Assembly (NCBI GenBank): GCA_039024915.1
Contig: JBCCPK010000002.1
Location: 434,001 to 498,000 of the forward strand
Length of the DNA: 64,000 nucleotides
From: Pseudomonadota bacterium
GTDB lineage: Bacteria > Pseudomonadota > Alphaproteobacteria > Rhizobiales > MH13
Direction: 5' to 3'
The notes beneath the pieces are model-generated. The model saw only the letters and a program-made list of their open reading frames with translations. It searched no databases and was not told the DNA's origin. The position numbers and the translations under genes were made by a program. The first letter of the stretch is position 1. Every line of letters begins with the position of its first letter. Shown here piece by piece: positions 58,470 to 64,000 of this stretch.

Positions 58470-58562
58470 CCAGCCGATGCCCAAACGGGGTCGTGAGCCT
58501 GATTTAAGAGGTCGCTGGCCAGCAAAGCTTATCATTTGTTGCTTCACTTGGAGGACACATCC
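58470..58562 (+). promoter_or_regulatory. ROSE-like RNA thermometer before hsp20
   Basis: The leader ends with UUGCU (58539-58543), six loop bases and GGAGGA (58550-58555), the exact arrangement of the ROSE element's last hairpin, in which UYGCU masks the Shine-Dalgarno until heat melts it. Further upstream are self-pairing segments, e.g. GCTGGCCAGC (58514-58523). ROSE elements commonly control small heat-shock genes in rhizobia. Confidence 0.6.
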
Positions 58563-59024
58563 ATGCGCGTTGATTATTCACCGCTTTACCGTTCGACCGT
58601 CGGTTTCGACCGGCTCTTTTCCTTGCTGGACCAATCGGTCTCGAACGAAACGAATTCCTACCCGCCCTACAACATCGAACGTACCGGCGAGAACGCTTAC
58701 CGTATCACCATGGCGGTCGCTGGCTTTGGTTCCGATGAGTTGACCGTGGAAACCAAAAACCACACCTTGCACGTACGCGGCGAGCGCAAGGCTGAGCAGA
58801 ACGCCGAGGGTCGCGAGTTGCTGTATCGCGGCATTGCAGCGCGCAACTTCGAGCGGCGCTTCCAGCTAGCTGACTACGTCGAAGTCGCAGGTGCCTCAAT
58901 GGAGAACGGCTTGCTGCACATCGACCTCAAGCGTGAATTGCCTGAAGCGATGAAGCCGCGCACCATCACGATTGCGAACGGCTCTGAAACGCCGGCTATC
59001 GATGTGGATGCAAAAGCGTCGTAA
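58563..59024 (+). CDS. Hsp20 small heat-shock protein
   Basis: A 153-residue alpha-crystallin-domain chaperone that holds unfolded proteins. It begins MRVDYSPLYRSTVGFDRLFS, then YNIERTGENAYRITMAVAGF, VETKNHTLHVRGERK and the FERRFQLADYVEVAGASMENGLLHIDLKRELPE region in pieces, followed by a C-terminal tail with the ATIDV-like anchor AIDVDAKAS. GGAGGA lies eight bases before the ATG. It is controlled by the heat-shock promoter and thermometer above, and closed by a terminator. Confidence 0.92.
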   Translation: MRVDYSPLYRSTVGFDRLFSLLDQSVSNETNSYPPYNIERTGENAYRITMAVAGFGSDELTVETKNHTLHVRGERKAEQNAEGRELLYRGIAARNFERRFQLADYVEVAGASMENGLLHIDLKRELPEAMKPRTITIANGSETPAIDVDAKAS

Positions 59025-59844: not shown

Positions 59845-60909
59845 CTAAGCGGCCTTGCTGCGGCTTGCGGCTTCGAGAAAGTGATCGACATGATCTTGCG
59901 TCGTCGCAAAGCTGGTGACGAGACGTATCAGGGTCTCATCGTCTGCTGGCCGAGCGCCATCGTCCGCTGCGTCCGACGGCCAGGGCGCAAAGATCGCACC
60001 TGCGCTCGCCAGGCTATCCGCCATTGTATTTGGGACGATCGCGAAAACCTCATTGACTTCAGTTGGCGCGGCGAGCCGGCAACCTGGCAGCGCTGACAAG
60101 CCATTCGATAGGTCGGCCGCCATCGTATTGGCGTGGCTGGCAAGCCTCTTCCAGGTGTCGTCGCGCAACATCGCCAGCGCTTGTGCGGCAGCAAACCGGT
60201 TCTTTGAAAACACTTGGCCCATCTGCTTGTTGCGATACGCAAGATCGTCGTGGAGATCAGGCCTGAAACTGACCACCATCTCGGATGCCCAGGCGCCGTT
60301 TTTGGTGAAGCCGAGAGAGAGCATATCCACGCCCGCCTCATGGGTCATCGCGCTGGGGGCAACATCTTGCGCCACCAAGGCGTTGCAAAAACGCGCACCA
60401 TCCATGTGTAGGAACACGCCGTTACGACGCGCAATCGAGCCGATGGCGGCAACATCCATGACACAATACGTGGTGCCAAACTCGGTTGCCTGGGTCATCG
60501 AGACAGCGATTACCCGTCCACGATAGATCGCACCGTCGGGATAGGCAGCCAATCCGTCAAGTACATCGCGGGCGCTGATACGGCCCTGACGTCCCTGCAG
60601 TTTGTGCAACTTCATGCCAACAAGCGATTCTGGCCCGCAGGCTTCATCGACCAGAATGTGGGCGTCACGATGGGCGAGAATCGCTCCACCGGGTCGCGTG
60701 ATGGCGCTCAGCGCCAACATGTTCGCGCCCGATCCCGTGGCCGTGCAAAAAACATCGACTTGCCGGTCAAAAAAAGCGCCCAACGTGTCCTTGAGTTGGC
60801 TGGTCAGGTCATCGGCGCCATAGGATGCGGCGAACCCAGAGGACGCCGCACGCAGAGCATCGGTCACCTCCGGTGCTGCGCCTGCCCAGTTGTCACTTCC
60901 AAAATACAT
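59845..60909 (-). CDS. low-specificity threonine aldolase
   Basis: A 354-residue PLP enzyme that cleaves L-threonine and L-allo-threonine to glycine and acetaldehyde. From MYFGSDNWAGAAPEV it has DVFCTATGSGANMLALSAIT, FLHMDGARFCNALVAQDV, and the PLP Lys in SLGFTKNGAWASEMV. The start is ATG 60909; the open frame begins at 60948 inside the upstream terminator. It is separate from the bufferin-like operon, which ends just before it. Confidence 0.9.
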   Translation of the reverse strand: MYFGSDNWAGAAPEVTDALRAASSGFAASYGADDLTSQLKDTLGAFFDRQVDVFCTATGSGANMLALSAITRPGGAILAHRDAHILVDEACGPESLVGMKLHKLQGRQGRISARDVLDGLAAYPDGAIYRGRVIAVSMTQATEFGTTYCVMDVAAIGSIARRNGVFLHMDGARFCNALVAQDVAPSAMTHEAGVDMLSLGFTKNGAWASEMVVSFRPDLHDDLAYRNKQMGQVFSKNRFAAAQALAMLRDDTWKRLASHANTMAADLSNGLSALPGCRLAAPTEVNEVFAIVPNTMADSLASAGAIFAPWPSDAADDGARPADDETLIRLVTSFATTQDHVDHFLEAASRSKAA

Positions 60910-60920
60910 CGCAGCCCCAA

Positions 60921-60957
60921 AACAAAGAAGGTCCGGTGCATGTAGCACCGGACCTTC
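60921..60957 (-). terminator. terminator of the bufferin-like operon
   Basis: A perfect 13-bp stem (60927-60939 with 60945-60957) and a five-base loop, followed on the minus strand by a T-rich run (TTTGTTTT). It lies 71 bases after the DoxX gene stop and directly before the threonine aldolase start. Confidence 0.8.
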
Positions 60958-61027
60958 GGCATGGCCAACTCATATCCACGCGTCATAGGCGCATCAATAT
61001 GCTTCGCCCATTGACCATGCAAACGTG

Positions 61028-61645
61028 TCAGCGTTCGCGTTTCAGCGCCCGACCCAACACGCTATCGGCGGAAAGAAGACCTGGTCCCTTGATAACAAGA
61101 TAGATCAGGGGAAAAGCCCACAGGAGGCGTTGATCAAGAATGATCGCATTCTGGAAACGGTCGAACCATGCCCCGATATCGGCGTCGGCAACGCCATGGA
61201 AGGCAACATCAACGTAGGATTGGACGACAATGAAACCGAGCATGCCCAAGGACGATAAACGGGTGAACAAACCAATCGTCACCAAAATCGGCAGGAGAAA
61301 CTCGGCGTAGGTTCCTGCATAGACCAGCAGGGTCCAGGGCCACGCTATCTGTGTGACGTCATACCCTACCGCCTCAATCACAGGCGGAACAATCTGCGCA
61401 TAGGCACCGATGGACAGGGAAAACAGACCACCATCCAACTTGGTCTGCGCGGCATTCCAGTAATACCCGAACAACACGGCGGCGAACGTGAAGCGCGCCA
61501 ACGCACCAGGAAGCCAAGCGGACGTTGCACGCTCAAGAACGCCGAATAACCGATTGTGAAGAGCGATTACGGTGCCAAGAGGGCCTGTTCTGTTTTGATC
61601 GTCATCAGCCATCTGGCCGACGGCGTGTGTGTCAAGGCTGGCCAT
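61028..61645 (-). CDS. DoxX-family membrane protein
   Basis: A 205-residue membrane protein with four helices, among them LPGALARFTFAAVLFGYYWN, a Pro/Tyr-rich loop, IAWPWTLLVYAGTYAEFLLP and ILVTIGLFTRLSSLGMLGFI, with the DoxX-type EFLLPILVTIGLFTRL strip. It is the last gene of the bufferin-like operon, starting 12 bases after bufC; DoxX proteins occur in the same place in known bufferin operons (BufD). It may help copper handling or redox steps at the membrane, but this is not shown. Confidence 0.82.
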   Translation of the reverse strand: MASLDTHAVGQMADDDQNRTGPLGTVIALHNRLFGVLERATSAWLPGALARFTFAAVLFGYYWNAAQTKLDGGLFSLSIGAYAQIVPPVIEAVGYDVTQIAWPWTLLVYAGTYAEFLLPILVTIGLFTRLSSLGMLGFIVVQSYVDVAFHGVADADIGAWFDRFQNAIILDQRLLWAFPLIYLVIKGPGLLSADSVLGRALKRER

Positions 61646-61657
61646 GGTCAGCTATCC

Positions 61658-62497
61658 TTATGCGGTGTGTTTGGGCGAAGGTGAAGGTGTTTCGGCCGAG
61701 AAAGCCCTGAAGGCGCCTACGGACAAGCCTAACGCCAGCGTGGCCTGCAGATCGAAATCCGGTTGAACCTCGAACGCTTTTTCCGCCGCGTCGGCGAAGG
61801 TGTCGCTCCCTTTGCAGGCGGCGAAAAAGGCATATCCGCCAGGACTTACTGCCCGCACGATTGGTTCGTACACCGGGCGGGTGACGATGGCATGTTCCGG
61901 TCGATTGATATCAAGGCGCGCTCGGGCATCCCCGAGGTCCGCGCCGGAGTTTGCAGCTTTTTCGATGGCATGAACACTGACGATGGCGAACTTGGTATTG
62001 AGCAGTCGAACCGCTGGATGGACGAGCAAATGCCCTCTCGAAAGGGTCTCTGGATCGACTGTGGCCAGCGTCGCCCCATCAAGGCAAGGCGCGTCAGCCG
62101 CGTGGTATGCGCCCAACTGCAGCATCTCAAGACGCGCAAGATCGGCGAGGAAAGGTCGCGAGGCAGAAACCGGATGGTTTGCGAGAAAGTCCGGAAAATC
62201 GGCCCCAAACTCGGCAAGAATTGCGGTTCGTGGCGGGTGTGTGCGCGCAAAGCCTGCCATAACTGCTCGGGCAGGCTCATCTCCAATGAGCTTCACTGTT
62301 ATGGGAAAGCTGTCGGCAAGCGCCTCAATCAGGCTGGACATCACATTGTTTCGGTAAACGGCGAACGCTTCCTCGGGGTTTGCCCCGTTAGCACGCGCAA
62401 TCCCTGCCGGAACGGGCGCATCGGGGTCGAGCACAGCCTGCGCGAACACGGACTGGTCGTCGGAAGGTCCGCCGTGTGTCATTGCATCAAGCGACAT
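61658..62497 (-). CDS. bufC: DUF2063 partner protein of MNIO enzyme (BufC-like)
   Basis: A roughly 279-residue soluble protein with the DUF2063 N-terminal domain: [40 protein letters not shown] with [11 protein letters not shown], and [20 protein letters not shown]. Such proteins bind the precursor peptide and the MNIO enzyme as recognition partners (HvfC, MbnC-like role, BufC). ATG 62497 overlaps the end of bufB by 11 bases; the frame is open further upstream. It depends on bufA and bufB for sense. Confidence 0.85.
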
Positions 62498-63356
62498 GGC
62501 GACGGCCAAGCAGCGGACTTTGGCGATCAAGGACCGCTTGCGCTCGCGCAGCTTCCTTCTGAAGCACCGGGAAAGCAGGAATATCGGTGTCCCATTCAAC
62601 CAGCGTGGGGCGCGCACCCATACGCTCGATCAGCGAGCCGTAGAGCTCCCAAACCGGATCTGCCACTTCGCGATCATGCGCGTCAATCAGAAGGGGCGCT
62701 CCATCGGTCAACATGACCGACGCGTGCCCGGCCAGATGCACCTCTCCGACATGCTGCACAGGGAAAGCATCGAGATAGGCTTGCGGCGAGGTGGCATGAT
62801 TGGTTGCCGAAACAAACACATTGTTCACATCGAGAAGCAAACCACATCCAGTACGCCGCGCGATCTGGGTAAGGAACTCAGTCTCTTCCATCTCGGACGT
62901 CTCGAAGACGACATATGTAGAAGGGTTTTCAAGCAGGATCGTCCGACCGAGCGCGGTCTGCGCTTCGTCGATGTGATCGCAAACGCGTTGCAACGTCTCC
63001 TCGGTGTACGGGACGGGCAGAAGGTCGTTCAAGTAGCTTTCATCATGGCTCGACCATGCCAAATGTTCTGAAAACAGGTCGGGCTGATAGCGTCGGTTAA
63101 GTTCTGCCAGGCGCGCAAGATGGTCGGAATCCAAGCGGCCCTCGCCTCCGATCGACAGACCGACACCGTGCAGTGAAAGCCCATAGCGCTGGCGCAAATC
63201 AGTGAGCATCCGGTGGGGCAAACCACCAGCACCCATATAGTTTTCGGGGTGTACCTCGAACCAGCGGACATCGTGTCTACCGGCCATTATCTCTTCGGCA
63301 TGGGCGTGCTTGAAGCCGAGGCCGGCATCACTATCGGTGATCATTGGAGCGGGCAT
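62487..63356 (-). CDS. bufB: DUF692 multinuclear iron oxidative enzyme (MNIO, BufB-like)
   Basis: A roughly 289-residue DUF692 TIM-barrel enzyme. The iron ligand regions of the MbnB/MNIO family are in order: [63 protein letters not shown] and [10 protein letters not shown]. MNIOs modify cysteines of a precursor peptide, for example to oxazolone/thioamide in methanobactin or thiooxazole in bufferins. The start at ATG 63356 is downstream of a strong intercistronic hairpin; the open frame begins at 63434. Confidence 0.9.
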
Positions 63357-63390
63357 GGCGAAGACTTTCAGAACAGGCACGGTTGGAGGG

Positions 63391-63421
63391 TTGCCGGACG
63401 GACAAAAAGTCCGCCCGGCAA
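63391..63421 (-). promoter_or_regulatory. intercistronic hairpin between bufA and bufB
   Basis: A 13-bp stem with one G-U pair (63391-63403 with 63409-63421) and a five-T loop lies in the 80 bases between bufA stop and the bufB start. No U tract follows, so it looks like an mRNA-stabilising or processing element rather than a terminator. Confidence 0.6.
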
Positions 63422-63436
63422 TTGGTGTGAGCAACC

Positions 63437-63769
63437 TTATGCAGGCAGGTCGCGATCGAGTTCGGTCAGGGAGCCCATACGGCCATCCGGCAGGAAGAGC
63501 TCATCGTCTGACATGCTGGCAGAGCCATACTGCTCGCAAGTGCCGGTTGGAACGAACGTCCAGGCGTTGCCCTGATAGTCAACCGTCGATGTGCCAGCAC
63601 AAGTGGTGCCCGGGCCTGCAGCGCAGTCATTAGCACCAGCAATTGAAATGCCATAACATTTCTCTTGGCCTTGAGCATGGGCCGGAGCAACGGCGGTTAC
63701 GGAAGCGGCGGCGCCAACAGCAGCAGCTGCGAGAACGGCGGCGGAAACGGTACGTCGGGTGAGGCTCAT
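63437..63769 (-). CDS. bufA: DUF2282 precursor peptide (bufferin, BufA1-like)
   Basis: A 110-residue exported peptide. The signal sequence (residues 1-32) ends APAHA, then [40 protein letters not shown] and GTCEQY carry four cysteines at 38, 49, 57 and 78, the exact DUF2282 spacing. In bufferins these cysteines are modified by BufB/BufC and bind copper in the periplasm. A C-terminal tail of about 30 residues ([15 protein letters not shown]) follows the last cysteine. AAGGGAA lies about ten bases before the ATG. Confidence 0.88.
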
Positions 63770-64000
63770 TGGTCTGTATTCCCTTGATGGTTCTTTGAGA
63801 GGATCAGCATACGTAGGAAAACTTAAAGCTCTCCATACACAGCAAGCTGCCTGACGATGCGTTCAAGGTGAAATGACAAGAGCGGGAGAGTTTGGGCACG
63901 GCGCACTCACGCCGTGGTGCACCAGCGTGATCTGTCTTCACGAAACCGTGAAATACAGAAATCTTCGATGCTCTGGCACTAGAGCTTAGCCGGGTGCCCG
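63770..64000 (-). promoter_or_regulatory. upstream region of bufA with two inverted repeats
   Basis: The region holds the promoter of the operon, but I see no certain -35/-10. Two inverted repeats occur: CACGGCG-N6-CGCCGTG (63897-63916) and TTCACG-AAAC-CGTGAA (63937-63952). Either could be an operator, or the first a terminator stem of a gene beyond the window. Copper or an ECF sigma factor regulates bufferin genes in Caulobacter, but a matching motif was not found. Confidence 0.35.

Follow-up and report, generated by a model that had tools for sequence, protein, structure and literature searches.

A Buf1-type bufferin operon, probably copper-sequestering, with a candidate upstream operator in an alphaproteobacterium

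Introduction

An earlier note on the stretch of alphaproteobacterial DNA analysed here, which is 64,000 nt long and is referred to below as the window, proposed that four of its genes form a bufferin-type operon with an unusual precursor. Bufferins are described as a family of peptides that carry thiooxazoles derived from cysteines and, once exported through Sec, sequester copper in the periplasm (PMC12452194, PMC12668002), and in precursors of the Buf1 type the central cysteines are modified and the outer ones are joined in a disulphide (PMC12452194). The locus raises the questions of whether it makes a peptide of this kind, whether its precursor stands apart from those of its relatives, and how its expression is controlled. 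We conclude, with a probability of about 0.88, that it is a Buf1-type bufferin operon making a modified peptide that sequesters periplasmic copper. By its gene content it is a complete and ordinary member of a known, widespread family, a textbook Buf1 operon, and the less familiar part of the locus lies upstream of it.

Organization of the operon

All coordinates are positions within the window. The first gene, bufA (63437–63769), encodes a Buf1/DUF2282 precursor of 110 residues and is followed by bufB (62487–63356), encoding an MNIO/DUF692 maturase of 289 residues, bufC (61658–62497), encoding a DUF2063 partner of 279 residues with a predicted RRE-like C-terminal domain, and a gene for a DoxX-family membrane protein of 205 residues (61028–61645), which is the last gene of the core cluster. 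All four genes are on the minus strand, and their strand, order and coordinates agree with the arrangement proposed previously, in which a DUF2282 precursor, a DUF692 MNIO, a DUF2063 partner and DoxX follow one another. The DUF2282, DUF692 and DUF2063 families, against which it had been suggested that the proteins be checked, were all matched above their Pfam gathering scores, and all four reading frames are intact. Judged from the sequence, the start of bufB is most likely the ATG at 63356 rather than the TTG at 63434 that opens the longest reading frame (the 315-residue form), and that of bufC is most likely the ATG at 62497, which overlaps the stop codon of the MNIO gene, rather than the GTG at 62617 of its longest frame.

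The strong terminator claimed for the end of the operon was recovered in a hairpin scan as an intrinsic terminator on the minus strand at 60927–60957, with a perfect 13-bp stem, a 5-nt loop and a T-rich tail. The scan returned two terminator-like sites against a shuffle mean of 4.2, and the call is made on the strength of this single 13-bp stem and not on the number of sites. Beyond the terminator lie genes for a Beta_elim_lyase-family protein and a TauE-family protein, as assigned with Pfam.

The precursor BufA

BufA matches PF10048 (DUF2282) with 81.1 bits against a cut-off of 22.4 (E 5.9e-23), and the four cysteines said to occupy DUF2282 positions are present as C38, C49, C57 and C78. Inspected by eye, the N-terminus, which looks similar in the relatives compared with it, shows a charged start, a hydrophobic stretch and an AHA site, and residues 1–32 are likely to form a Sec-like signal cleaved after APAHA at residue 32. 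The same four-cysteine pattern was found in all 84 precursors of the 80 related loci (those of the best 80 of 544 enzyme relatives), a figure that holds partly by construction because the precursors were collected with the profile of the same family. BufA contains a single four-cysteine DUF2282 domain, and no EGKCG repeat was found within it. Among the NCBIfam models, the one for BufA2, the Buf2 precursor with six or twelve cysteines, gave 18.7 of the 60 bits set as its cut-off to this protein with four cysteines only, and no BufA1 model matched at E 0.01.

The suggestion that the precursor is unusual did not hold up when it was compared with its relatives. Its core is close to the common form of the family, and although its C-terminal tail of 32 residues exceeds the length seen most often, 22 (21 of 109 distinct precursors), a tail of 32 residues also occurs in three genomes of the same genus (L033; L034, which is identical to L037; and L035), so that BufA is normal for its group. 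The tails that follow the last cysteine (63437–63535 in the window) recurrently end in G-S-L, often as L.RDLP. A generous search pattern found the G-S-L ending in at most 97 of the 109 distinct precursors, which is an upper bound because GTL, GML and chance GS[AM] satisfy the pattern too and in BufA itself it matched an earlier GSA first; RD plus one residue is present in 56 of the 109. The tail motif possibly serves in recognition by the partner BufC; for the signal peptide, preliminary evidence of a role in recognition has been described (PMC12452194).

The maturation enzyme BufB

BufB scored 387.6 bits against the NCBIfam model NF050167 (MNIO_BufB), for which the cut-off is 310, and PF05114 (MbnB_TglH_ChrH) matched above its gathering score with an E-value of 1.6e-106. 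The closest enzyme of known structure is 3BWW (E 2.5e-43). Residues H89, H124, E169, D202, N205, H233, D251, H253 and E280, numbered as in the 315-residue form, are conserved in 105 or more of the 108 MNIO sequences aligned, a set in which the enzyme of the window is counted twice. Through the alignment with 3BWW, by which the numbering was transferred, N205, D251 and H253 appear to match N175, D242 and H244 of HvfB, and these HvfB residues are the predicted iron ligands of site 3 that were replaced by alanine (PMC13419390). The genome to which the window belongs contains one MNIO and one DUF2282 protein above the cut-off, the second DUF2282 match having an E-value of 1.07, below the cut-off; with one of each in the genome the pairing of precursor and enzyme is unambiguous.

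The partner BufC and the DoxX protein

BufC matches PF09836 (DUF2063) with 78.5 bits against a cut-off of 27.2 (E 4.7e-22). A search of the PDB by sequence found no relative for BufC, the profile search being empty at E 0.01, and the TALE repeats returned by a single-sequence search (E 0.011 and 0.091) were taken as chance matches. A structure model of BufC built from 40 sequences has a mean pLDDT of 93.3, and Foldseek gave three matches to it at E ≤0.001, namely the two TglI entries 8hci and 8hi7 and the entry 3dee. A second structural comparison placed the same three entries at the top with Z scores of 13.9 (8hi7), 13.8 (8hci) and 13.7 (3dee), the next row having 7.2. The entry 3dee, cited in PMC12668002 as a DUF2063-bearing PME1 protein, aligns over residues 45–268 of BufC. 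By its DUF2063 domain and predicted fold, BufC has the make-up of a type 1 PME, in which DUF2063 is fused to an RRE-type domain. The C-terminal part also matched the chains 5v1v, 5lq4 and 6gos, which we take to be RRE-bearing, with Z scores of 5.9–6.1, but these direct matches add little because their scores are no higher than those of unrelated rows such as GdmN (7.2).

The DoxX protein passes its family model narrowly, with 26 bits against the PF07681 cut-off of 23.6 (E 1.5e-5). The NCBIfam cut-offs of HvfC and HvfX were missed by BufC (54.4 of 142 bits) and by the DoxX protein (19.2 of 80 bits), respectively. The BufA2, HvfC and HvfX models describe sister types, and the three proteins tested against them lie below the curated cut-offs.

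Distribution and relation to known systems

DUF2282 was found in 38 of the 61 related genomes and, within the class, in 90 of 241 genomes that were drawn at a completeness of at least 90%, with the genome of the window included in both counts. A scan of named genomes gave 544 relatives of the enzyme, and the loci of the best 80 of these were compared. BufA, MNIO, PME and DoxX follow one another on one strand in 70 of the 80 loci, and in 69 of those 70 the gaps between neighbours are below 300 bp. Among the other ten, several run into the end of their contig (for example L043, L052, L071, L072 and L091), and the disorder or doubling seen in L095 and L102 arises solely from the use of long stop-to-stop frames. 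Two or three precursors are present in loci L043, L091 and L111. The closest named relative among the best 80 is Devosiaceae bacterium MH13, the enzyme of which is 77% identical over its best segment, and strains of Cohaesibacter and Thalassospira are among the cultured relatives that have the operon. As a system, the operon is one further example of a large and already described family of copper-sequestering peptides that is common in the lineage.

Assigned by reading, the recurrent neighbours in the 80 loci are glutamate-synthase-like, small heat-shock-like and aldolase-like genes, and they reflect synteny. In the window, a small heat-shock-like gene (58536–59024) and an aldolase-like gene (59845–60948) have counterparts near the operons of relatives in 12 and 10 of the 80 loci, respectively. 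Several Hyphomicrobiales have such neighbours beside their bufferin operons, which suggests that the chromosomal position is old and was not gained by recent transfer, whereas the copy in Legionella lies on an integrative conjugative element (PMC5413113).

The operon has its nearest described counterpart in Caulobacter, where the Buf1 operon CC3254–CC3257 has the same order of DUF2282, DUF692, DUF2063 and DoxX (PMC3511200). In Cupriavidus metallidurans and Legionella, the gig operons are stated to be bufferin clusters (PMC12452194, PMC5413113). The fontiphorin/oxazolin (EGKCG) captophorins likewise combine an MNIO with a PME1 partner, and a 5-thiooxazole product has been proposed for this class (PMC12668002), with a mass loss of about 8 Da reported for a double-repeat fontiphorin test peptide in the same work; captophorin precursors carry EGKCG repeats, in contrast to the single four-cysteine DUF2282 domain found here. 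The hosts of the gig operons named above, Cupriavidus metallidurans and Legionella, belong to other bacterial classes. The methanobactin proteins MbnBC and the TglHI pair include enzymes of the same superfamily as BufB and partners with a fold related to that of BufC, and the enzymes are distant in sequence from BufB (E 4.7e-16 for TglH and 1.3e-9 to 2.3e-6 for MbnB chains). Their precursors are without signal peptides (PMC12452194), whereas BufA carries a Sec-like signal as judged by eye.

Proposed function

Every sequence-level feature of a Buf1 operon that could be tested is present, and in this respect the original proposal of a bufferin-type operon stands. We infer the modification, export, copper binding and protection from characterised relatives. 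By analogy with these, BufA would be synthesised with an N-terminal Sec signal and presented in the cytoplasm by BufC, through its DUF2063 and RRE-like domains, to the iron enzyme BufB, which would convert the two central cysteines C49 and C57 to 5-thiooxazoles. The outer cysteines C38 and C78 would then form a disulphide, and the modified BufA would be exported via Sec and hold excess copper in the periplasm. DoxX would have an accessory role, and metal would probably induce the operon by way of some regulator that is not the SigF/NrsF pair.

A true bufferin operon could also have its main role in another stress, such as that caused by chromate, cadmium, gold or another agent. In Caulobacter, dichromate and cadmium induce the genes of the Buf1 operon by way of SigF (PMC3511200), in Legionella gold as well as copper elicits a response of the operon (PMC5413113), and doxX genes have been proposed as markers of protection against other stresses (PMC12452194). 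However, Buf1 and related peptides bind copper wherever the chemistry was done, as described in PMC12452194 and PMC12668002, and none of the neighbouring frames near the operon points, by reading, to another metal, so that a main role outside copper is considered unlikely. A peptide left unmodified despite the presence of the genes, or a decaying operon, is very improbable, as neither finds support in the sequence, the four frames and the enzyme residues are kept, and the same four-gene order is present in the same-genus genomes G001 and G003 (the short contig of G002 shows the precursor and enzyme only).

A candidate operator upstream of bufA

In Caulobacter the bufferin operon is under the control of SigF and is held back by NrsF, and the genes for both (CC3253 and CC3252) adjoin it (PMC3511200); for the Legionella operon an influence of RpoS has been suggested (PMC5413113). 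In the genome of the window, which is 97.6% complete, a search that detected the Caulobacter control returned no match to NrsF, and the operon is preceded by a TCAC-N6-GTGA dyad. The upstream frames were read, and no sigma factor was seen among them; they look unrelated. With no NrsF in the genome, a regulator other than the Caulobacter SigF/NrsF pair is likely. The hexamer GTAACC, which we take to be of the SigF type, occurs in the Caulobacter loci L106 and L112; it was found in 8 upstream regions of the first set described below (112 regions) and in 13 of the second (82 regions), in 2 and 1 of these together with the dyad.

The half-sites TCACG and CGTGA were spotted by aligning the upstream regions of four genomes of the same genus, that of the window included. 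The promoter region, at about 63770–63952, falls outside the interval 60921–63769 covered by the earlier note and contains the candidate operator TTCACG-N4-CGTGAA (TTCACGGTTTCGTGAA, 63937–63952), the centre of which precedes the start codon of bufA by about 175 bp and which is the sole exact TTCACG-N4-CGTGAA in the genome. A second, wider pair of half-sites, TCACG-N14-CGTGA (63907–63930), is partly conserved in the other members of the genus, and the block TTGTCATTTC on the minus strand at 63870–63879, a possible promoter element, is shared with the three other same-genus upstream regions.

TCAC-N6-GTGA was found upstream of bufA in 36 of 112 distinct discovery regions, a set that includes related genomes and in which the dyad had been noticed before it was counted, against a mean of 0.38 and a maximum of 3 in 200 shuffles that keep single-base composition only. 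Other spacers between 0 and 15 gave counts of 0 to 2 in these regions, and other 4-mer dyads at N6 reached at most 6. The dyad was also found in 9 of 82 additional regions that had been screened against the discovery set by shared 24-mers (shuffle mean 0.285, maximum 2, n=200); here TCAC at other spacers gave 0 to 2, and the GC-rich dyad CGGC reached 7. Because it is absent from 76 of the 112 and 73 of the 82 regions, the dyad marks at best one of several modes of control. A profile of 34 sites shows a TTGATTTCCA-like block and, read by eye, suggests additional weak half-sites at intervals of some ten to eleven bases.

These observations led us to consider that many alphaproteobacterial Buf1 operons, including this one, are under a non-SigF regulator that binds the candidate operator YTCACR-N4-YGTGAR, probably with extra half-sites towards the promoter at a spacing of about one helical turn, a proposal for and against which we see the odds as even. 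No recurrent DNA-binding regulator appeared among the 22 largest neighbour clusters of the 80 loci, of which five were read fully. An exact-text literature search for spellings of the motif found no paper, most subscription journals being beyond its reach, and searches on bufferins, the gig operon and the palindrome gave nothing relevant beyond the Legionella paper, and one on UzcR nothing usable, among the matches listed. If the proposal is true, naming the protein that binds the operator would bring to light a metal-responsive switch that does not belong to the SigF system; an operator-like site that is conserved and lies in a genome in which no NrsF was detected provides a direct handle on the switching of the other bufferin operons.

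The strict form of the dyad occurs at three places in the genome of the window, compared with one for a reversed control: at bufA, upstream of a gene for a YHYH protein and within the frame of a DciA-like gene. Across 15 related genomes it occurs at 32 places, compared with 17 for the control, and no consistent target emerged among the 17 of the 32 places that were inspected as loci. A weak excess of this kind speaks against a large regulon or else against the strict form of the motif. The YHYH-domain gene (L121:341–1447, minus strand) has its strict dyad at L121:1501–1516, 54 bp upstream, and it is possible either that this gene is co-regulated or that the site is there by chance. In genomes of the same family a strict dyad precedes an rpoH-like gene by about 150 bp in two cases (L134 and L142) and lies not more than 100 bp from a DUF3047-like gene in two (L132 and L135), both genes being named by reading; the dyad of L132 falls inside another frame. 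Four identical copies of the strict dyad are present in G043 and are perhaps a repeat.
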